In this document: in pieces, positions 5,048 to 62,921 of the stretch | How positions within the stretch are numbered: the stretch's first letter is position 1 | How the letters are laid out: every line of letters begins with the position of its first letter | DNA from: Flavobacteriia bacterium | Lineage (GTDB): Bacteria > Bacteroidota > Bacteroidia > Flavobacteriales_D > Crocinitomicaceae | Length of the DNA: 64,000 nt | Direction: 5' to 3' | Assembly: GCA_947446925.1 (NCBI GenBank) | Contig: CANFHU010000008.1 | Coordinates: forward strand, 52,220-116,219 | Made by a program: the position numbers and the translations under genes | Notes under the pieces: generated by a model | Database searches by the model: none | Seen by the model: only the letters and a program-made list of their open reading frames with translations | Told to the model about the DNA's origin: nothing

Positions 5048-6379
5048 TTAGGATTTAATTCCTTCGGTTTGGAATAATTGATGATTTGTACTCATTTTTT
5101 TATTCAAATAAATTATTATTACAAAAGTAAATATAAACATCCAAAATGTTGCATTATGATAGTTTAATGACTCTGTCCCACCAACGAAAGCAAAATAAAA
5201 AATAAAATTTTGAAGAACAAGAAGATTTCTATTTTTAGTTGTAATATACATTTTTCTTATTGTTCTTGAAGCTACTATAATTAAAGTATAATAAACAAAT
5301 AAACCAATATAACCTATATCTAGAATTAATTGAAGTAATATATTGTGAGTACTCACATATTCAGAATTTGAAAAAATTGAAAAGTCTTTTGCCCATAGAC
5401 TTGATACTTTGGAGCCTACCTGTCCAAATTCTCCAAAACCTATAAGATGATTCATTTTAAATGATATCAATTCATTCAAACTCAAAGCCCATAATATATT
5501 TCTGTTATTTCCGGTTGCTAAATCTTCACTATTTCGAGACAAAAAATCAAGGTATTGACTGTTAGTGACTAAAAAACTGGTCAAGACAAGTAGTATTGGT
5601 AAAAAACTAATAAATGATATAAATAAACCAGTTATTTTTAAATGATTAAGGTCTTTAAGAAATCGATTACATATTACAATAAATATTATTGCAAGTAATG
5701 ATGATCTCATATCTAAGATCAATAGACCAAAAATTGATAATATAAAGAAAATTAAAGAATATTTTTTAAATTTTTTAATTTTAGTTGTAGAATAAAATGT
5801 AACGCTAATAATCGCTGATGCGCCCAAAAATGAACCATAATTATTTACACCAGAGGTTAACGGTAGTGGTAATCTTTGTATTTCTAATCCAAATAAAGAA
5901 CGTAACATTTCTGAAAAACCAATTTGCGGATAATTTTTTTTATAGTCAAATATATCAATAGAAAGAAGTTCAAAAATATAATTCGATACTATAAAAGTTA
6001 TTGGAATAGTTATAAAAAAAAAAAATAATTTTTCATCATCAACATTCTTTTTATCATCTTGCTTAACTAATTCAAAAATAACAGATAGAGTTGCAAAAAT
6101 CATGATAATTATAATTATTATTTTGTAATAAGAATAAGTTACACTCGATGAATCTATATTTGATCTTAAATAAGAAATAAATAATAATATCAAAAATATA
6201 ATAAATAATTTGGATAGAATTGTCTGTTTTTGAAATGAGTATAATTCAATTTTTTTCCAGTTTGTAAACGATATTAAAATTAACCCAAATAAGACAGTTA
6301 TATTAATTATATTGGTATATTCTGATACTTTGTAATCTGAGAATAATATCGTAATTAGTAATATATATAAATATTTCAA
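5048..6379 (-). CDS. wzy: O-antigen polymerase/ligase-like membrane protein (Wzy type)
   Basis: A 443-aa polytopic membrane protein with about ten to twelve hydrophobic segments from residue 2 onward. A large loop in the second half contains ATGNNRNILWALSLNELISFKMNHLIGFGEFG, the pattern (N-R-x2-W, then GxGxGxxG) typical of the Wzy_C/O-antigen ligase superfamily, with a conserved histidine downstream (STHNILLQLILDIGYIGL). In the Wzy-dependent pathway it would polymerise repeat units at the periplasmic face. Adjacent to a flippase gene, as expected. A ligase (WaaL) role cannot be excluded by eye. Confidence 0.75.
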   Translation of the reverse strand: MKYLYILLITILFSDYKVSEYTNIINITVLFGLILISFTNWKKIELYSFQKQTILSKLFIIFLILLFISYLRSNIDSSSVTYSYYKIIIIIIMIFATLSVIFELVKQDDKKNVDDEKLFFFFITIPITFIVSNYIFELLSIDIFDYKKNYPQIGFSEMLRSLFGLEIQRLPLPLTSGVNNYGSFLGASAIISVTFYSTTKIKKFKKYSLIFFILSIFGLLILDMRSSLLAIIFIVICNRFLKDLNHLKITGLFISFISFLPILLVLTSFLVTNSQYLDFLSRNSEDLATGNNRNILWALSLNELISFKMNHLIGFGEFGQVGSKVSSLWAKDFSIFSNSEYVSTHNILLQLILDIGYIGLFVYYTLIIVASRTIRKMYITTKNRNLLVLQNFIFYFAFVGGTESLNYHNATFWMFIFTFVIIIYLNKKMSTNHQLFQTEGIKS

Positions 6380-15950: not shown

Positions 15951-16793
15951 TTATAGAAATCCTAATACGATTAAATGGAACCAGCGATCTTGCGTCAAAA
16001 GAAAGAGGAAGAATAGTCCTTCAATCACAAAAAATGAAAATTTAAACAGGAATATATATGCCGCAGTTAATTCTTTTTTTCTTCGAACAAAGTAAGGGAT
16101 TGCAAAGAAAAGTGCCGTAAATGGATAGGTATTTACTGATGAAAAATCAATGTTATATGTACTTACTTCTAATTTACTCTTATGAAATATTTTTGTCGGA
16201 TTATGAAATATAAAAGAGCTAGAAATATAAATAGTGTCTGAGTATTGTAATTTATTTTCCAAATTTCTTTCCGTGAATATTTTTAAATTTTGATTGGTTT
16301 GAATTAGGAAAACTTCCTCTTGAAATAAACCATTGTATGGGGTTGAAAAATGCGTAACTAATTGTTTTTCAATATGATTTGGAAGCAATGGTTCCACTAT
16401 TAATAAAATACTTACAAATAGTGAAACATAGCTAATTGTACTAAATAGTTTCCATTGAATTCCGGACGTAATTTTTTGATAGGATTCTTTTAGTTTTTTT
16501 TCTTCTAGTATACGTTTTTCGCGCAATCGCTCTTTGGCTTTGCGTATTCTTTCCATCCGTTTTAATTCTTCCGATGGATTTGCTTCTGTTGGTATAAATT
16601 TGGGAGTTGGTTTATCCTCCATTAAGAAATCATATGCTTCTTTGATTAATTGAAAAATTTCTGTCGCATTTTCTGATTTATTTTTATCCGGATGAAACTC
16701 TTTTGCTAATTTTCTAAATTGTTTTCGAATTTCATCTTTGCTAGCATTCAAAGGAAGATTGAGCAATTCTAAATATTTTCTTCTAGTGCTCAT
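15951..16793 (-). CDS. J-domain (DnaJ-like) membrane protein
   Basis: A 280-aa protein with an N-terminal J domain (about residues 5-60) including the HPDK motif at 34-37 (LAKEFHPDKNKS). A basic, coiled-coil-like linker (RKAKERLREKRILEEKK) follows, then hydrophobic segments near residues 125-145 and in the C-terminal 60 residues. It lacks the Gly/Phe and zinc domains of true DnaJ, so it is a J-protein that probably recruits DnaK to the membrane. Its start overlaps the menE end by 11 bases. Confidence 0.75.
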   Translation of the reverse strand: MSTRRKYLELLNLPLNASKDEIRKQFRKLAKEFHPDKNKSENATEIFQLIKEAYDFLMEDKPTPKFIPTEANPSEELKRMERIRKAKERLREKRILEEKKLKESYQKITSGIQWKLFSTISYVSLFVSILLIVEPLLPNHIEKQLVTHFSTPYNGLFQEEVFLIQTNQNLKIFTERNLENKLQYSDTIYISSSFIFHNPTKIFHKSKLEVSTYNIDFSSVNTYPFTALFFAIPYFVRRKKELTAAYIFLFKFSFFVIEGLFFLFLLTQDRWFHLIVLGFL

Positions 16794-17802
16794 TTTTCCA
16801 TTTTTGGTACGTTGAAATACGATTTATTTTTCCTGAGTTGGTTTCTTCAAACGGAAAATAAAAATATATATTTTTTGGAATCTCATGTTTTTCCAAATTG
16901 TTATTTAGCAACTCAAAAATTTCATTGTTTCGTTCAAATGAATATATATTTTCAATGAAAAGAACTATTCTTTCTCCTAGTTTTTCATCGTATGCTTTTG
17001 AAATAAAAAATCGATCCTTCAATTGATTTTCTATTTTCTTTTCTAGTATTTCAGGATGGAATTTTTTTCCGCCTGAAATGATGACAAAATCTTTTCTACC
17101 TAACCATTTAAATTCAATGGAGCTTATTAATTCAACTTGATCGTTTGTCTCCATAGCTTCAATCCCGAGAAGTGGTGCATGAATAATGAGTGAGTCGTTA
17201 GAAGTGGTAAACGAGATATTTTTTAATGCTCTAAAATTAGGAATGGAATCTTTTAAATTTTTTATTGCTACATGTGACATCGTTTCGGTCATACCATAAC
17301 TTTCATAAAAATTCATCGGATAGTTTTGAATTTTATCCGTGAGCGATTTAGAGACGGGCGCACCACCAAGTAAGATGTTATCAATTAAATATAATTTTTC
17401 CGGAGATTCTATTAGGATGGAAATTAACTGATAGGGAACTAAAGAAACAAACGCGACATGTTCTTGTAAATTAAGTAATGGATTTTTAACTACATCACTA
17501 ACAATTAATTGCATCTTAAATTCTAAAGCACGAATAATAAGCATTTTACCTCCAATCGTATCTGCTGAAAGCGATAATAAAATGTTTTGTCCTTCTTTAA
17601 ACTTAAAATATTCACCTGTCATTTGAGCAGACGCTTTTAGGTGTTTCTTAAGTAGTTTAATGGTTTTAGGTTTACCTGTAGAACCAGAAGTTTGAGATGT
17701 AATATAGTTTTTGTTAGAATTCCATTCATCGATAAACCCAAGAACTTTTGTTTTAAGTTCTTGGTTATCTGTTATAAATTTTATATTGATTTCAGGTTGC
17801 AT
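16783..17802 (-). CDS. menE: AMP-binding enzyme, likely o-succinylbenzoate-CoA ligase
   Basis: A 339-aa member of the ANL superfamily, short as is usual for Bacteroidota MenE. Motifs: ITSQTSGSTGKPKTIKLLKK (phosphate-binding loop), NFYESYGMTETMSHVA (adenine/Thr motif) and WLGRKDFVIISGGKKFHPEI (hinge Asp and C-terminal domain). In menaquinone synthesis it activates o-succinylbenzoate with ATP and CoA. The other men genes are not in the window, so the substrate is inferred from size and motif pattern. It is coupled to the tsaC-like gene by a 1-base overlap. Confidence 0.75.
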   Translation of the reverse strand: MQPEINIKFITDNQELKTKVLGFIDEWNSNKNYITSQTSGSTGKPKTIKLLKKHLKASAQMTGEYFKFKEGQNILLSLSADTIGGKMLIIRALEFKMQLIVSDVVKNPLLNLQEHVAFVSLVPYQLISILIESPEKLYLIDNILLGGAPVSKSLTDKIQNYPMNFYESYGMTETMSHVAIKNLKDSIPNFRALKNISFTTSNDSLIIHAPLLGIEAMETNDQVELISSIEFKWLGRKDFVIISGGKKFHPEILEKKIENQLKDRFFISKAYDEKLGERIVLFIENIYSFERNNEIFELLNNNLEKHEIPKNIYFYFPFEETNSGKINRISTYQKWKNEH

Positions 17803-57669: not shown

Positions 57670-58383
57670 TTACTTTTTAGATTTCCCTTTAACAGCCACA
57701 TCGGATCCTTCTGCAAGAAATGTGGATCTTGGGGATGTATCATTTAAACATGCGAAATCGGGACCATATACTTTTTGAAAATCAACATGACAGGTGAAGT
57801 CAATGGTAGGATAGACATTCCAAGTAGGGTGGGAGACTTCGTATTCGGAGGTTTTTGTATCTGAAATACGGGTGTAGCCCCAATAATGTTCTGTAATAAA
57901 TTCTTCTTCACTTCCGGTTGAAAAGGCATAGGGTTTTGCATCAGTAGTAATGCTAAAGGAATGCCATTGTTTTTTATAGAAGAATGCGTATTCGATTTGG
58001 AGTGTGGTAACTGTAATTTCCCAATGGTGGTTCATGCGCATGGTATGGTAATGCTCTTGGTATAATGTATTTGCGATGAGAGTAATAGCAGGTTTTGGGA
58101 CAATTTCTTTGATAAATACAACGCCACGTTTCCATTCGCCATTCTCTAATTTTTTCACATAAAATCGTAAGTTGACTTCTTCGAAATTAGCATGGAATGG
58201 GACTTTTATACCTTTTAATTTCGTATGTAAAAACATAAACCCAATTAAGGAAACAATACATTTACCTTCCCAAAGGTCTAGTTCTGTTCCGTATGGGAGG
58301 TATTTTTGGAGAAGATTTGGGTCAATTTCATAATTGGCCATTACTAATTTTTCCCAGCGTGCAGTTAAAAAATTCGTAGCCAT
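57670..58383 (-). CDS. DUF2071 (YqjF-like) family protein
   Basis: A 237-aa protein of the acetoacetate-decarboxylase-like fold family. Its N-terminus FLTARWEKLVMANYEIDPNLLQKYLPYGTELDLWEGKCIVSLIGF is the YqjF hallmark, followed by VNLRFYVKKLENGEWKRGVVFIKEIVPKPAI. The chemistry is unknown. It is probably complete. It lies between the MITE-like element and the first composite repeat, at the border of the accessory island. Confidence 0.85.
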   Translation of the reverse strand: MATNFLTARWEKLVMANYEIDPNLLQKYLPYGTELDLWEGKCIVSLIGFMFLHTKLKGIKVPFHANFEEVNLRFYVKKLENGEWKRGVVFIKEIVPKPAITLIANTLYQEHYHTMRMNHHWEITVTTLQIEYAFFYKKQWHSFSITTDAKPYAFSTGSEEEFITEHYWGYTRISDTKTSEYEVSHPTWNVYPTIDFTCHVDFQKVYGPDFACLNDTSPRSTFLAEGSDVAVKGKSKK

Positions 58384-58510
58384 GATTCCAAAAAGATTAG
58401 TGAGGTGAATTGAACTAAATATACGTTATATTTTCAATTAATGGAAGTTAATTTCCAGAATATTTGTGGATTAAACGAAATGGAATTTTGTGTGTTTATT
58501 TCTTTGGTTA

Positions 58511-58595
58511 AAACTGCTAGAAACGTAAAAAAATTAGGCAAGGTATTTCAAGTAGAAATAAGGTTGTAAAAGGAAGTGTATAGGTTAAAAATCCC
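58511..58595 (+). repeat. composite intergenic repeat, copy A
   Basis: AAACTGCTAGAAACGTAAAA begins a divergent copy of module 1: CTAGAAACGTAAAA..AAGGtATTTCaaGTAGAAATA. It continues into a TAGGTTaAAAATCC segment shared with copy D. The ATTTC/GAAAT arms form a hairpin. This is the least conserved copy. A 42-codon ORF (58441-58569) runs through it but is not credible as a gene. Confidence 0.55.
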
Positions 58596-58751
58596 AAATA
58601 ACTTGGGGATAAACCTGCATAAATTTCGGGTAGAGTTTTGAAATAAATTTTCTTAAAAGTTACTTAGATAAATTAAGTGTGATAAATAGAAAAATAAAAA
58701 AATAAGTATTTAATTATCAATAATTTAATTTAAAAATGTGCTTTTATTATG

Positions 58752-58785
58752 GTTCCAAAAAATCTAATATTAAAAATTTTGGAAC
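58752..58785. repeat. inverted repeat GTTCCAAAA/TTTTGGAAC
   Basis: A perfect 9-bp inverted repeat with a 16-base AT loop in the gene-free stretch 58384-59250. It could be a terminator-like hairpin or part of a structured RNA. Apart from it, the composite-repeat copies and the 41-bp repeat, this 867-base stretch shows nothing recognisable. Confidence 0.45.
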
Positions 58786-58844
58786 GATAATAGACAAATA
58801 AAAGTGCTGGATTAACTTAGTTGCTGCGATAAGGTAAAATCCTG

Positions 58845-58900
58845 TACGGAGCGAAAAAAAGCTCCGGATTACAAATCCAGATGAGCGAGGGCTGGAAACT
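58845..58900 (+). repeat. composite intergenic repeat, copy B1 (module 2 only)
   Basis: ACGGAGCGAAAAAAAGCTCC then GGATTACAAATCCAGATGAG and CGAGGG. Module 2 has nested arms GCTC..GGATT-ACA-AATCC..GAGC and recurs at 59780 and 61380 almost unchanged, in the same orientation. Module 1 is missing in this copy. Confidence 0.6.
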
Positions 58901-58977
58901 TTTGTTATATCCTTGATTTTGATAAATACCAGATTTATAATTCTCCATTTTTATTAAAATTTAAATTAAAGATACTT

Positions 58978-59059
58978 CTTATTTTGAAAATAGACCAAAA
59001 ACTATAATAAGAGAGAATCTTATTTTAAAAATAGATTAAAAAATATAATAAGAGTTATT
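58978..59059. repeat. two 41-bp tandem direct repeats
   Basis: Unit 1 begins CTTATTTTGAAAATAGACC and unit 2 CTTATTTTAAAAATAGATT; each is 41 bases and they differ at about seven positions. Each unit ends ATAATAAGA and the next begins TCTTATT, making inverted half-sites across every junction. A hairpin GCTTCGG..CCGAAGT follows at 59071-59091. This could be an operator array on the downstream side of the XRE gene. Confidence 0.55.
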
Positions 59060-59250
59060 CTTATAAAAATGCTTCGGTAGATTTCCGAAGTATGTTACAG
59101 ATTTTACGAATAATTTGCATTTTTAATTGAAAAATCAATAGTATTTGAAATCAAATTTTTCTTTTGTCTTGATATTTCCAAAGTTCAATAAGAACAAAGT
59201 AAACATCCACAGTGGCGGATAAAAACCCTAAATAACTGGATTCTCTTCTC

Positions 59251-59559
59251 CTAAAACTCAATAGAAAGTTTTAGATGACCTCCCAAGCCTTTTTCAATAA
59301 TACGTAATAAGGTCGATAAACGAATATCACTCGCATCATTTTCAATACGCGAAATGTATGCCTTGTTGGTACCACAACGCAATGCTAATTCCTCTTGGGT
59401 GATTTGTTTCTTTTTTCGTTCTTCTTGAATAAGAACACCAAGTTTAAATGTTTCATACTCGGTAGTGAATACATCTCTTGAAGAAGTGCCTTTTTTGCCA
59501 TATCGTTTGTCTAAATGATCATCAAACGTTGTGATGGCTGTTGAATTTGTTGTTTTCAT
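59251..59559 (-). CDS. XRE-family antitoxin-like regulator (HigA type)
   Basis: A 102-aa protein. The HTH lies at about 47-100: FKLGVLIQEERKKKQITQEELALRCGTNKAYISRIENDASDIRLSTLLRIIEKGLGG. The N-terminal 40 residues (TAITTFDDHLDKRYGKKGTSSRDVF) match HigA-type antitoxins that follow a Gp49-like HigB toxin. Here the expected toxin gene upstream (59560-59640) is reduced to a short remnant, so the antitoxin is orphaned. Confidence 0.8.
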   Translation of the reverse strand: MKTTNSTAITTFDDHLDKRYGKKGTSSRDVFTTEYETFKLGVLIQEERKKKQITQEELALRCGTNKAYISRIENDASDIRLSTLLRIIEKGLGGHLKLSIEF

Positions 59560-59615
59560 CTTCGTATTCTTTTTTAATTCTTAACGCTCTTTCGATGACT
59601 AATACTCGTTCCATT
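59523..59615 (-). pseudogene. possible 3' remnant of a HigB toxin gene
   Basis: A 30-codon frame MERVLVIERALRIKKEYEDENNKF... just upstream of and overlapping the XRE gene. The text IERALRIKKEYEDE resembles the C-terminus of Gp49-like HigB toxins (..EIxxAxxxKKEYExE), and a small overlap with the antitoxin start is usual in such operons. A stop codon (TAA) lies right before the ATG and no further toxin sequence is visible. End coordinates are approximate. Confidence 0.35.
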
Positions 59616-59720
59616 TAATTTATACAAAGTTACCTAATTAGACTACAAAATCCTACAGATTTTTCAGAATTTACATACCCATCGAGAAATAAATTTAGTT
59701 CAATTTTAGTAGTAAAATTA

Positions 59721-59817
59721 AAACTGCTAGAAACGTAAAACAAGGAAGAAAGGCATTTCGCGTAGAAATACGATGGGGAAAAAAGCTCCGGATTATAAAT
59801 CCAGAGGAGTGAGGGGG
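59721..59817 (+). repeat. composite intergenic repeat, copy B2 (modules 1 and 2)
   Basis: The most complete copy: AAACTGCTAGAAACGTAAAA, then AGGCATTTCGCGTAGAAATA, CGATGGGGAAAAAAGCTCCG and GATTATAAATCCAGAGGAG. Hairpin 1 is ATTTC-GCGTA-GAAAT; hairpin 2 is CTCCGGATT-ATA-AATCC..GGAG. It sits between the orphan antitoxin and the ATPase gene. Confidence 0.7.
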
Positions 59818-59876
59818 AACTCATTGATGTGTTGCGCTTATAAAAGTAAGGGAATAAAAAAAGGAAATAAGTATCA

Positions 59877-59980
59877 AATCACCAAATAACACACATATTC
59901 GGTAATTTAAATCACTAAAATATATATATAATTGGTGATTATAATCACTAAAAATATAGTATATTTGGTGATTATGATTA
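59877..59980. promoter_or_regulatory. 33-bp-period operator array before the DUF4143 ATPase
   Basis: Half-sites AATCACC/T start at 59877, 59910 and 59943, exactly 33 bases apart, and GGTAATT, GGTGATT and GGTGATT start at 59901, 59934 and 59967, also 33 apart. Each pair forms a palindrome (best: GGTGATTATAATCACT at 59934-59949). The last site covers the ATG at 59974. Even spacing of about three helical turns suggests cooperative protein binding. Confidence 0.6.
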
Positions 59981-61100
59981 ATAGAGCGTTATTTCAAAAA
60001 CTAATCGAAAAGTTTAATAAAGGCAAAGCGATTGTATTATTAGGTCCGAGACAAGTAGGAAAAACTACGTTAATAAACACATGTTTAGAAGGACAAGATT
60101 TTTTATTTCTAAATGGAGATGATCCAGAAATACGAAATTTATTAGAAAATGCTGGGGTTTCTAAATTACGTTTAATTATCGGGAAAAACACACTCATTTT
60201 CATCGATGAAGCTCAAAGAATAAAAGACATTGGACTTATTGCTAAAATGATTATTGATCAATTTAAAGAAGTACAATTAATAGTAAGTGGCTCTTCTGCA
60301 TTAGAAATCAATCAATCCACCCAAGAACCTTTAACAGGAAGAAAGTTTGAATACCAGTTATTTCCGATCAGTTGGGAAGAATTTGAAAATCATGTAGGAT
60401 ATGTAGAAGCAAACACGCAACTGGAAGAACGCCTCATATACGGAATGTATCCGGATGTGCTAAATAACAGATCGGAGGCAGGTGAAATTTTAAAGCAACT
60501 TACTACAAGTTATTTATATAAAGATGTACTATCCATTACAGGTATCAAAAAACCGGAATTATTGGATAAACTTTTAAAAGCTTTAGCCTTACAAATCGGA
60601 AGTGAAGTATCCTACAATGAATTAGCTAATCTCTTACAGATAGACAAAACGACTGTTTCTAAATACATCGATTTATTGGAGAAAGCTTACATTGTGTTCC
60701 GACTAAACAGTTATAGCAGAAATCAACGCAATGAAATCAAAAACAATCGTAAAATCTATTTTTATGATAACGGGATACGAAATATGATAATCAACAACCT
60801 TAACCCTTTAGAATTGAGAACAGACAAAGGAGCACTCTGGGAAAACTTTTTAATCTCTGAACGGTTAAAACTACAACAATACAATCAACTGTATACTAAC
60901 AATTATTTCTGGCGAACAGTTGAAAACAAGAAGTTGATTTTGTAGAGGAAACAAACGGACAAGTTACTGCTTACGAATTTAAATGGAATAGCAAAGGAAA
61001 AGCTAAAATTCCAGCAGTATTTTTAAATCAGTACAGTGCAAATGGTAAAATTATTGACAAAGAAAATTTTAGAGAGTTTGTAAGAAATGACACCATGTAA
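59974..61100 (+). pseudogene. frameshifted AAA ATPase with DUF4143 domain
   Basis: Walker A IVLLGPRQVGKTTLINT, Walker B NTLIFIDEAQRIKDI, sensor LIVSGSSALEIN, winged-helix-like VSYNELANLLQIDKTTVSKYIDLLEKAYIVF. The ORF-track product stops at 60945 after WRTVENKKLIL. In the next frame the missing end follows directly: VDFVEETNGQVTAYEFKWNS to REFVRNDTM and TAA at 61098-61100, completing the D..ExK motif. One lost base near 60935 explains it (AACAAGAAGTTGAT where AACAAGGAAGTTGAT is expected). The track's start at 59932 lies in the operator array; the ATG at 59974 is preferred. Confidence 0.8.
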
Positions 61101-61145
61101 GTCCGCTCTCTATTTTCATTTTCAACTGTTAAAATTTAAATGTAA

Positions 61146-61238
61146 TCAGCAGTCCAGCAATTCTGGAGGTGTAGGTTCTACTTTATCTCTTTGTGGAGGT
61201 AATTTATCCAACGATAAATAAGGTGCAATTTGTCCCAT
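61146..61238 (-). pseudogene. 30-codon coding-like fragment
   Basis: MGQIAPYLSLDKLPPQRDKV followed by EPTPPELLDC and a stop. The low-complexity Pro/Glu ending is more protein-like than chance, and it could be the end of a lost gene. It is not recognised. The rest of 61101-61350 shows nothing. Confidence 0.25.
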
Positions 61239-61350
61239 ATATCTAATATAAGTACCAAAAATACAAATAACGGTACGTTTAATAGGTTTTAACTAATTTT
61301 TAGTTTCACAAAATTAAGGTAAAGCTTGAAAAATAAAAAGCGTACAATTA

Positions 61351-61411
61351 ATTTCACGTAGAAATACGATGGGGAAAAAGAAGCTCCGGATTACAAATCC
61401 AGAGGAGCGAG
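61351..61411 (+). repeat. composite intergenic repeat, copy C
   Basis: ATTTCACGTAGAAATACGAT then GGGGAAAAAGAAGCTCCGGA and TTACAAATCCAGAGGAGCGA. It keeps hairpin 1 and hairpin 2, but the left CTAGAAACGTAAAAC part is missing. It stops at the end of the antitoxin gene (stop codon at 61412). Confidence 0.7.
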
Positions 61412-61987
61412 TTATAGAAACAAAAATGCTACCCCTTGATTCTTTGTTTTTAATTTTGAATAAAAATTTGGCTTATTAATTTTAGCCAATGAATCTTTAA
61501 GTCTGCTTTGTTCCATTGGAGGAATCATTGTAGGTATTAATGCTTCTAATTTAATCCCGAAGATTCGATGAATAATAATCAAATCTTTATTGCTAAATGG
61601 ATGAATACCATTCATTAACTCGGAGATATAGGATTTTGTATGTCCTAACAATACTCCTAAATCTTGTTGGTTTAAATCAAAGTCTTTTAATTTCGTTTTA
61701 ATTAGTTCCTTTCTTTGCTGTAAAAATAAACGTTCTTGTTCCGCTAAAAATTCGGCTGTATCACTTTCGTTAATACGATCTTCCGTGATTTCTGTTTCGT
61801 TGTTCCAATGTTCCTCTTCGTAATTTTGGATTAGTACGCGTAATTGGTTGTAACTTTCCGCTAATTCTGGTCGATTTTCTTTTACTAAACGAAGTTTACG
61901 GTAAAGAATTAACACACGTTCAAATTCTATTTCATCTGAAATAAAGCCTCTACGTAATACATTTTTTATATCCAATTGCGTTTTCAT
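61412..61987 (-). CDS. antitoxin-like HTH protein, partner of the HigB-like gene
   Basis: A 191-aa protein. An N-terminal helical region (residues 1-105, rich in Glu/Arg, for example EERVLILYRKLRLVKENRPE) is followed by an XRE-type HTH (about 108-160): FDLNQQDLGVLLGHTKSYISELMNGIHPFSNKDLIIIHRIFGI. This resembles the COG5499 HigA-type antitoxins, here with a helical extension. It is 10 bases downstream of the toxin-like gene, the order typical of higBA. Its end abuts composite repeat copy C. Confidence 0.75.
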   Translation of the reverse strand: MKTQLDIKNVLRRGFISDEIEFERVLILYRKLRLVKENRPELAESYNQLRVLIQNYEEEHWNNETEITEDRINESDTAEFLAEQERLFLQQRKELIKTKLKDFDLNQQDLGVLLGHTKSYISELMNGIHPFSNKDLIIIHRIFGIKLEALIPTMIPPMEQSRLKDSLAKINKPNFYSKLKTKNQGVAFLFL

Positions 61988-61997
61988 CTTTTCTTGA

Positions 61998-62402
61998 TTA
62001 GTTTATCCAACTGTTACTTTTTAACCATTTACGGATAGTATCTCTATTGTTTTTAAATGTAGATGCATAATCAGCATGCGAACCACACCAAGCAATACTC
62101 GCTTCATCCTCCCTAAAATAAACACCTAATAAAATTCTATGTATATGTATATCAAAAAAGTAAAAAATTTCAACCACACAATCGGCATCTGGACGTACTT
62201 GTAGAAGTTCAAAATGATTTTTCCACGTGGCTTGTTCGATACAGACAATCAAATCATCTATCGCTACTACTAATTTTACATTTCCGATATTTTTCTTTTT
62301 TAACTTTAGTAATTTATGTTTGTGCCTAATCTCCAACTCTTTTACAAATATAAGAATTAAAGTTCTGTTTAATTTAGAACTTTTAAAATAATTATTTCCC
62401 AT
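61998..62402 (-). CDS. HigB-like toxin
   Basis: A 134-aa protein. The RelE/HigB-like core is visible as ATWKNHFELLQVRPDADCVV, FYFFDIHIHRILLGVYFRED and WCGSHADYASTFKNNRDTIRKWL. The GTHxxY-like motif (CGSHADY) is typical of HigB-family mRNA interferases. An extra N-terminal segment of about 40 residues (LNRTLILIFVKELEIRHKHKLLKLKKK) precedes the core and may be part of the fold or come from a start chosen too early. It would be neutralised by the following HTH protein. Confidence 0.75.
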   Translation of the reverse strand: MGNNYFKSSKLNRTLILIFVKELEIRHKHKLLKLKKKNIGNVKLVVAIDDLIVCIEQATWKNHFELLQVRPDADCVVEIFYFFDIHIHRILLGVYFREDEASIAWCGSHADYASTFKNNRDTIRKWLKSNSWIN

Positions 62403-62503
62403 TCATATATCCATTTCTTAAAGCGCAGAAATTATTCTCCAGTAGGAAATAATTAGTTCTTTTACCAAAAGATTGCATATACTTTCATTAGTTAAAATTA
62501 TAA

Positions 62504-62598
62504 CCACTAGAAACGTAAAACAAGTAGCAAAGGCATTTCGCGTAGAAATACGGTGGGGGAAAGACAGTTTACAGGTTGAAAATCCTGCACAGCGGGGA
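62504..62598 (+). repeat. composite intergenic repeat, copy D (module 1 plus a different 3' module)
   Basis: CACTAGAAACGTAAAACAAG, AAAGGCATTTCGCGTAGAAA, TACGGTGGGGGAAAGACAGT then TTACAGGTTGAAAATCCTGC. Module 1 matches copy B2 closely, but module 2 is replaced by an ACAGGTTGAAAATCCTG segment that resembles the 3' part of copy A. So two classes of 3' module exist. Confidence 0.65.
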
Positions 62599-62690: not shown

Positions 62691-62921
62691 CTAATACGTA
62701 GGCCTGCCATCAGGAATAAGATTTTTTACATCCTCTTCTAATGCAGTTGCAATTTTACAAAGAGTTCTAAAAGTTGGAATTGATTTGGCTGACTCAATTC
62801 TCCTTAGATTGGTAGGTTCAATTCCAATTTTAAAAGCAAGTTCATTTTGTTTAATACCCTTATCCTTTCTTATTTTCTTTATATTACTGCAAAGAAGTTC
62901 AAGGTATTCTAGCTCTGTCAT
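62691..62921 (-). CDS. small XRE-family regulator
   Basis: A 76-aa HTH_3 protein, essentially a lone DNA-binding domain: LCSNIKKIRKDKGIKQNELAFKIGIEPTNLRRIESAKSIPTFRTLCKIATALEEDV, ending IPDGRPTY. It is divergent from the outer-membrane barrel gene; the 100-base gap contains a candidate operator (62960-62971). Confidence 0.85.
   Translation of the reverse strand: MTELEYLELLCSNIKKIRKDKGIKQNELAFKIGIEPTNLRRIESAKSIPTFRTLCKIATALEEDVKNLIPDGRPTY

Follow-up and report, generated by a model that had tools for sequence, protein, structure and literature searches.

Integrons are the textbook means by which bacteria keep and reshuffle cassettes of small genes, and the purpose of RAYT/REP elements is debated. 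The features of pdif modules that enter the comparison below are partly general knowledge. Among the RAYTs, TnpA_REP subclass 2.6 corresponds to RAYT group 5, a Bacteroidetes class with atypical secondary structures (PMC6006769). Here we describe a chromosomal locus of a Flavobacteriia bacterium (genome G000), seen in a 64-kb window (the whole stretch of DNA analysed), at which exchangeable cassettes, mostly of toxin-antitoxin type, are bounded by direct repeats that contain a REP hairpin. A search of the open-access literature brought up neither an array like this one nor exchangeable gene cassettes with REPs at their borders, which leaves their absence there unproven.

A Composite Site Repeated in One Direction

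Repeat searches of the window recovered a 70-nt family (at 58503, 59713, 61309 and 62493) and a 47-nt family (at 58845, 59769 and 61367), and pattern searches of all 64 kb placed exact or near-exact copies of module 2 and of the module-1 hairpin motif, the two parts into which the initial annotation had divided the repeat, in the array region only. By chance, 0.2 copies of module 2 and 0.29 of the module-1 hairpin motif are expected in the window; seven matches were observed, against never more than one in a rough shuffle of the region. These searches bear out the five annotated repeats (58511, 58845, 59721, 61351 and 62504), in a single orientation and with no others in the window.

The site has a core of 60 nt, extended in some copies to about 100 nt, and is composite: an 18-nt motif, ATTTCRCGTAGAAATACG, closes the left cassette and is followed by a REP hairpin, and the motif is often preceded by a 45-nt left extension. 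The extension (CTGCTAGAAACGTAAAACAAGTAGNAAAGGC) is present in sites A, C and E and the motif in sites A, C, D and E, and a REP-type hairpin comes after the motif, or after the element that precedes it in site B, in every site. All five sites lie on the + strand. Site C (59713-59815) is full, with the left extension, the core motif at 59755-59772 and the REP hairpin at 59785-59813. In site A (58513-58600), the left extension (CTGCTAGAAACGTAAAA) is followed by a core motif with two mismatches (58545-58562) and a decayed module 2. Site D (61351-61411) consists of the core motif (61351-61368) and the REP hairpin (61383-61411); the copy annotated at 61351 is therefore present but without the left extension CTAGAAACGTAAAAC. 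Site E (62493-62597) has the left extension, the core motif at 62535-62552 and a variant REP (ACAGGTTGAAAATCCTGCACAGCGGGG). A copy that swaps module 2 for another segment does exist, as had been proposed, but it is this last one (62504), in which a further REP variant (AGGTTGAAAATCCTGCACAGCGGGG) takes the place of module 2. The copy at 58845 did not prove to be composite: site B (58804-58888) lacks module 1, and its REP hairpin (58861-58888) is preceded by a different, long-loop REP-like element (GTGCTGGATTAACTTAGTTGCTGCGATAAGGTAAAATCCTGTACGGAGCG; 58804-58853), a pairing also found elsewhere in the genus. Finally, a degenerate half site (AATTCTGGAGGTGTAGG; 61149-61176, + strand) marks the end of the DUF4143 cassette. 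All core sites point the same way; a loose scan allowing four mismatches gave two reverse-strand matches, which were discarded because the palindromic motif overlaps itself at site A. The contig, and with it the window, ends about 1.4 kb beyond site E, and the right edge of the array lies outside view.

Cassettes between the Sites

The order in the window is anchor, A, DUF234 remnant, B, TA1 (toxin lost), C, DUF4143 (frameshifted), Fic remnant, D, TA2 (HigBA-like), E, HTH gene, where the names DUF2071, DUF234, FISUMP and LpoB-like, here and below, were given by sequence inspection and the other names via Pfam. The left anchor, outside the array, is a DUF2071-like gene (57670-58383, − strand). 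The DUF234-type ATPase cassette is reduced to a remnant, its promoter region (58692-58792, no strand assigned), with an 83% match to the G011 array (970-1072), in which the gene is intact. The TA1 cassette retains its HTH_3 antitoxin (59251-59559, −). This gene had been annotated as an orphan, and no toxin lies beside it; its partner, a Gp49/HigB-like toxin present in G001, G003 and G011, was lost through a deletion of about 0.27 kb that was not found in relatives. Downstream of the antitoxin, the same cassette contains two tandem 41-nt units (58977-59058, 83% identical), also seen in G003.

The DUF4143/AAA_14 ATPase (59974-60945, +) lies between two copies as annotated but is truncated by a frameshift near 60930, ending early relative to intact 375-aa relatives; an intact homologue matches Pfam PF13635/PF13173. 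In two other genera (G141:C11, G047:C10, G216:C5), the DUF4143 homologue occurs as a single gene flanked by a different repeat (TGYCCCACCTCGAACC...), with one copy on each side and both on the same strand. This repeat extends up to 31 nt at 97%, and its motif occurs three times in 1 Mb of other loci. Of the Fic cassette, only the start-codon side and promoter remain (61176-61350, −; 98.7% match to the end of the intact G011 cassette). The TA2 antitoxin (HTH_3; 61412-61987, −) and toxin (HigB_toxin, PF09907; 61998-62402, −) make up the pair that the annotation had correctly called higBA-like. The small HTH_3 gene that follows site E on the right (62691-62921, −) is possibly a further cassette or the array edge. 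With a toxin deleted, DUF4143 frameshifted and Fic reduced to a remnant, the window array is decaying.

One Locus with Different Cassette Orders in Relatives

The array is flanked by the DUF2071 gene on one side and an aminotransferase/transketolase block on the other, and an exact scan of GTDB genomes located the core site in two other genomes, both at this same locus. A homologue of the anchor gene occurs in 8 of 13 congeners, the window genome included; its orthologues mark the same locus in seven of these (G000 among them), G005 having a 41% homologue only. Arrays are present in four congeners, G000, G001, G003 and G011, the last split over two contigs and ending before the same aminotransferase. 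In G006, G008 and G009, the locus leads from the anchor into the aminotransferase and transketolase genes, and no array intervenes. Strong matches to a covariance model of the core (46-89 bits) are confined to the arrays, where window site B and one G001 site score lower; the weaker matches found elsewhere (27-40 bits) are for the most part either plain REPs or a long-loop element paired with a REP. When 200 genomes of the family were scanned, five exceeded the threshold, the fifth (G005) with weak REP-type matches. Thus, among the 200 family genomes, the composite core site is convincingly detected at this locus alone, and not spread uniformly through the genome. The genomes are drafts, many of them metagenome-assembled, and the arrays compared number four; given such assemblies local misassembly is possible, though four separate assemblies agree.

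The cassettes follow one another differently in each array. G003 has anchor, DUF4143, TA1, Fic remnant and FISUMP gene; G011 has anchor, DUF234, DUF4143, TA1, GNAT cassette, Fic, nucleotidyltransferase-like (DUF6932), Fic remnant and a further gene; and G001 has DUF4143, LpoB-like gene, TA1, nucleotidyltransferase-like, TA2 and a hypothetical gene. The comparison of occupied and empty sites hence favours the annotated idea of cassettes, with the same flanks enclosing different content and order and with some congeners having the anchors without an array. At the 17 sites of the four genomes for which junctions were tabulated, TA1 has four right-hand neighbours (DUF4143, Fic remnant, GNAT and nucleotidyltransferase), all joined at one base, and Fic has four (TA2, FISUMP, nucleotidyltransferase and another gene); TA2 and the nucleotidyltransferase have two each, and at least two left neighbours were found for each of TA2, DUF4143, Fic remnant and nucleotidyltransferase. 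The core starts at the identical base behind every left cassette, including Fic, nucleotidyltransferase and GNAT, which have no left extension. The site is not complete at every junction, with only a half site at DUF4143-TA1 (G011) and at DUF4143-Fic remnant (window). Near-identical cassettes are therefore joined to different neighbours at the same base, as expected of the cassette array first proposed. In the G001 array, a cassette gene (5108-6115) is 84% identical to a gene about 11 kb along the chromosome (16362-17374), possibly a chromosomal gene captured as a cassette.

Exchange between Species

The anchor genes of the window and G001 share 76% DNA identity (0.55 at four-fold sites), against 95-97% for the TA1 and TA2 antitoxin genes (0.84 at four-fold sites), and over 29 four-fold sites the TA1 toxins of G003 and G001 score 1.00, where their anchor genes reach 0.49. 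Overall, cassettes are 93-97% identical between species, including about 95% in their non-coding parts, with the anchor at about 76%; four-fold-site identity with G001 ranges from 0.84 to 1.00 in cassettes and from 0.49 to 0.55 in the anchor gene. Cassettes so much more alike than the anchor have therefore been exchanged horizontally. The site was unmatched in viral contigs and phage and plasmid records held no relevant match to the region, and carriage of the array by phage or plasmid was rejected after these searches.

The Fic unit also occurs outside arrays, in G009 and G003, beside an orthologous neighbour gene that is 68% identical. These stand-alone units are 94.7% identical to each other and 96-97% identical to the G011 array copy, and the similarity to the array copy stops directly after TAGAAATACG, with module 1 present and the REP absent. 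In G003 (C3; L219 1952-2469, 3832-4052), the unit has the neighbour gene on one side and, on the other, a related duplicate of the end of that gene, an arrangement that suggests segmental duplication at insertion.

Identity of the Two Modules

Module 2 is a hairpin, CCGC[A]GGATTANAAATCC[A]GCGG, followed by AGCGGG. Like a REP, it is an imperfect palindrome with a conserved foot, NNNN[A]GGATTANAAATCC[A]NNNN-AGCG, in copies scattered through the genus. Its outer stem, which alone is informative because the search pattern itself prescribed the inner stem, covaries (21 double-change cells against 7.2 in shuffles, with 0 of 500 shuffles reaching it). In sister species, the hairpin lies on both sides of RAYT genes (G006:C2, G009:C53) that share the motifs NHIH, WQ and YIHNNP with TnpA_REP subclass 2.6. 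Module 2 thus belongs to a RAYT-tied REP family. No cognate RAYT was found in G000 or G011 at E <= 1e-5, and G001 and G003 have fragments only; intact copies are in the array-less G006 and G009, so the array carriers are not the RAYT carriers. The REP/RAYT link in the initial annotation accordingly stands for module 2, but no RAYT is tied to module 1 and the cognate enzyme is absent from G000. Two Y1 transposases of G000 (C1:43274 and C22:16423) were rejected as cognate RAYTs, being of other subclasses with other flanking repeats. The transposase at C1:43274 is subclass 1.2-like and flanked by palindromes (CAGCCCTGAAAGGGCG); subclass 1.2 is described as generally without terminal structures (PMC6006769). 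Half-REP duplications are found in G000 and G001; in G000 they (AAATCCAGCACAGCGGAAATCCAGCATAGCGG) lie beside intact REPs at C1:199460 and ~201232 (L058 7461, 9233), and look as if units had been added directly behind AGCGG. Close to the RAYT locus of G009:C53 (L174 position 2604), ATTTGTATAATTTAAATTATGTAAATA resembles a chromosomal dif site.

Module 1 is nearly invariant, with TAGAAATA in 15 of 15 aligned copies. It can be folded in two mutually exclusive ways and shows no compensatory changes; to judge from the aligned copies, it behaves as a conserved cassette end more than as a hairpin. The structured RNA that had been offered as a further reading falls away, with no Rfam matches beyond chance and no covariation in module 1. 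Pairing of the 5′ and 3′ ends of the core (TTTCGC with GCGAGG), for which a single compensatory change was noted by eye, was dropped. A pdif or dif site comprises an 11-bp XerC arm, a 6-bp spacer and a XerD arm (TTATGTTAAAT-like). The array site was rejected as such, having a XerC-arm-like left part only and no TTATG arm at the expected distance, and a search of the retrieved loci gave no dif-like match at array sites. The occurrence of ATATTGCGTAGAAATACG close to XerC-type genes of G003 and G011, with two mismatches and in orthologous sequence, was put down to chance.

Mechanism of Exchange

For this chromosomal array of mostly toxin-antitoxin-type cassettes with their own promoters, we put first, at an even chance, exchange at REP-derived direct repeats mainly by homologous recombination. 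The site would have arisen from the REP element of a subclass 2.6 RAYT, and homologous recombination between direct repeats would excise, lose, reorder and import cassettes, import taking place where incoming DNA from related species recombines at the repeats. Toxin-antitoxin cassettes would persist since they resist loss. What the sequences show directly is the site structure, the restriction to one locus, the uniform orientation, the combinatorial joining, the exchange between species and the place of module 2 in a RAYT-tied REP family. Direct repeats of 60-100 nt suffice for homologous recombination with no dedicated enzyme, which fits carriers without a RAYT or a recognised integron integrase. 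Against plain homologous recombination stand the identical core start base behind Fic, nucleotidyltransferase and GNAT and the Fic singletons that end exactly after the 18-nt motif; both point to a defined end, for which plain homologous recombination would have no use. A mismatched 60-nt repeat is, moreover, near the lower limit for efficient RecA recombination. As far as the sequences go, the sharp cassette ends argue for a past or present site-specific step.

Such a step could be taken by a tyrosine-type site-specific recombinase that cuts the boundary of modules 1 and 2 and moves cassettes as circles. The sharp ends at |ATTTC and after ATACG are what it would leave, and about one site per cassette in one orientation, on a single chromosomal platform with toxin-antitoxin-rich cargo in combinatorial order, would also agree with it. 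We nevertheless consider it unlikely: attC boxes (RYYYAAC ... GTTRRRY) are absent on either strand from 17 of 17 sites, and the four tyrosine recombinases checked, two of them from G000, include no integron integrase, all scoring 107-184 bits against the TIGR02249 cut-off of 265. None lies in the array flanks seen, and the array-bearing genomes have no consistent excess of tyrosine recombinase genes. Improbable, too, is an HUH enzyme acting in trans, a subclass 2.6 TnpA_REP that would use module 2 as left hairpin and module 1 as right hairpin and mobilise the intervening gene in single-stranded form, in the IS200/IS605 manner. Such a RAYT does have module 2 as its REP, single-stranded DNA of both modules can fold into hairpins, the unit can be read as left hairpin, gene, right hairpin, and the half-REP duplications of G000 and G001 are in line with such activity; however, the carriers have the cognate RAYT as fragments or not at all, the array-less G006 and G009 have it intact, the Fic singletons have module 1 without a REP, and module 1 does not covary. 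Least probable is an ordinary hypervariable island, where toxin-antitoxin genes land repeatedly at a tolerant locus and REP insertions are passive, the array look being incidental, for although REPs are scattered elsewhere in these genomes and REP pieces lie at the empty G006 locus, the composite site is unscattered, in one direction and at cassette borders, and the same cassettes are joined in different orders at the same base.

Comparison with Known Systems

A bolder and rather doubtful claim than our preferred reading, exchange by homologous recombination, would be that the locus represents a second natural cassette platform in Bacteroidota. In such a platform, HUH (RAYT) REP hairpins joined to an 18-nt end motif would be sites dedicated to exchange, and toxin-antitoxin cassettes would be collected and reordered there, in a single chromosomal place, with no integron integrase involved. 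An array with integron-like behaviour but a REP-derived site and no known integrase would show that cassette platforms can arise from repeats other than integron sites; toxin-antitoxin and defence-like genes would then have their exchange points in RAYT/REP elements, which would thereby gain a concrete role. This is testable at the locus, with a few related genomes sharing cassettes in different orders.

Miniature elements derived from IS200/IS605 likewise have two dissimilar subterminal hairpins, but the array has no TnpA in cis and no demonstrated target tetranucleotide, and its cargo lies between copies and not inside one element. The pdif/dif modules of Acinetobacter plasmids (XerC/XerD; PMC6449649) are also shuffling toxin-antitoxin and small-gene modules bounded by short sites; in contrast, the array has no XerD arm, its sites all point in one direction, and it is chromosomal. 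With REPs and the RAYTs of subclass 2.6/group 5 (PMC6006769), the array shares module 2, the same hairpin family that flanks the RAYTs of sister species; unlike in that system, the REP is fused to module 1 and in one array only, and the cognate RAYT is missing. From sedentary chromosomal integrons and CALINs, the array differs in its two-part site (motif plus REP hairpin) without RYYYAAC/GTTRRRY boxes and in that no integrase was found, although an integron integrase is not required for a CALIN. In other respects it resembles them: exchangeable cassettes are bounded by same-direction sites, about one per cassette, on one chromosomal platform, with reordering, horizontal exchange and many toxin-antitoxin cassettes whose genes face either way with their own promoters.
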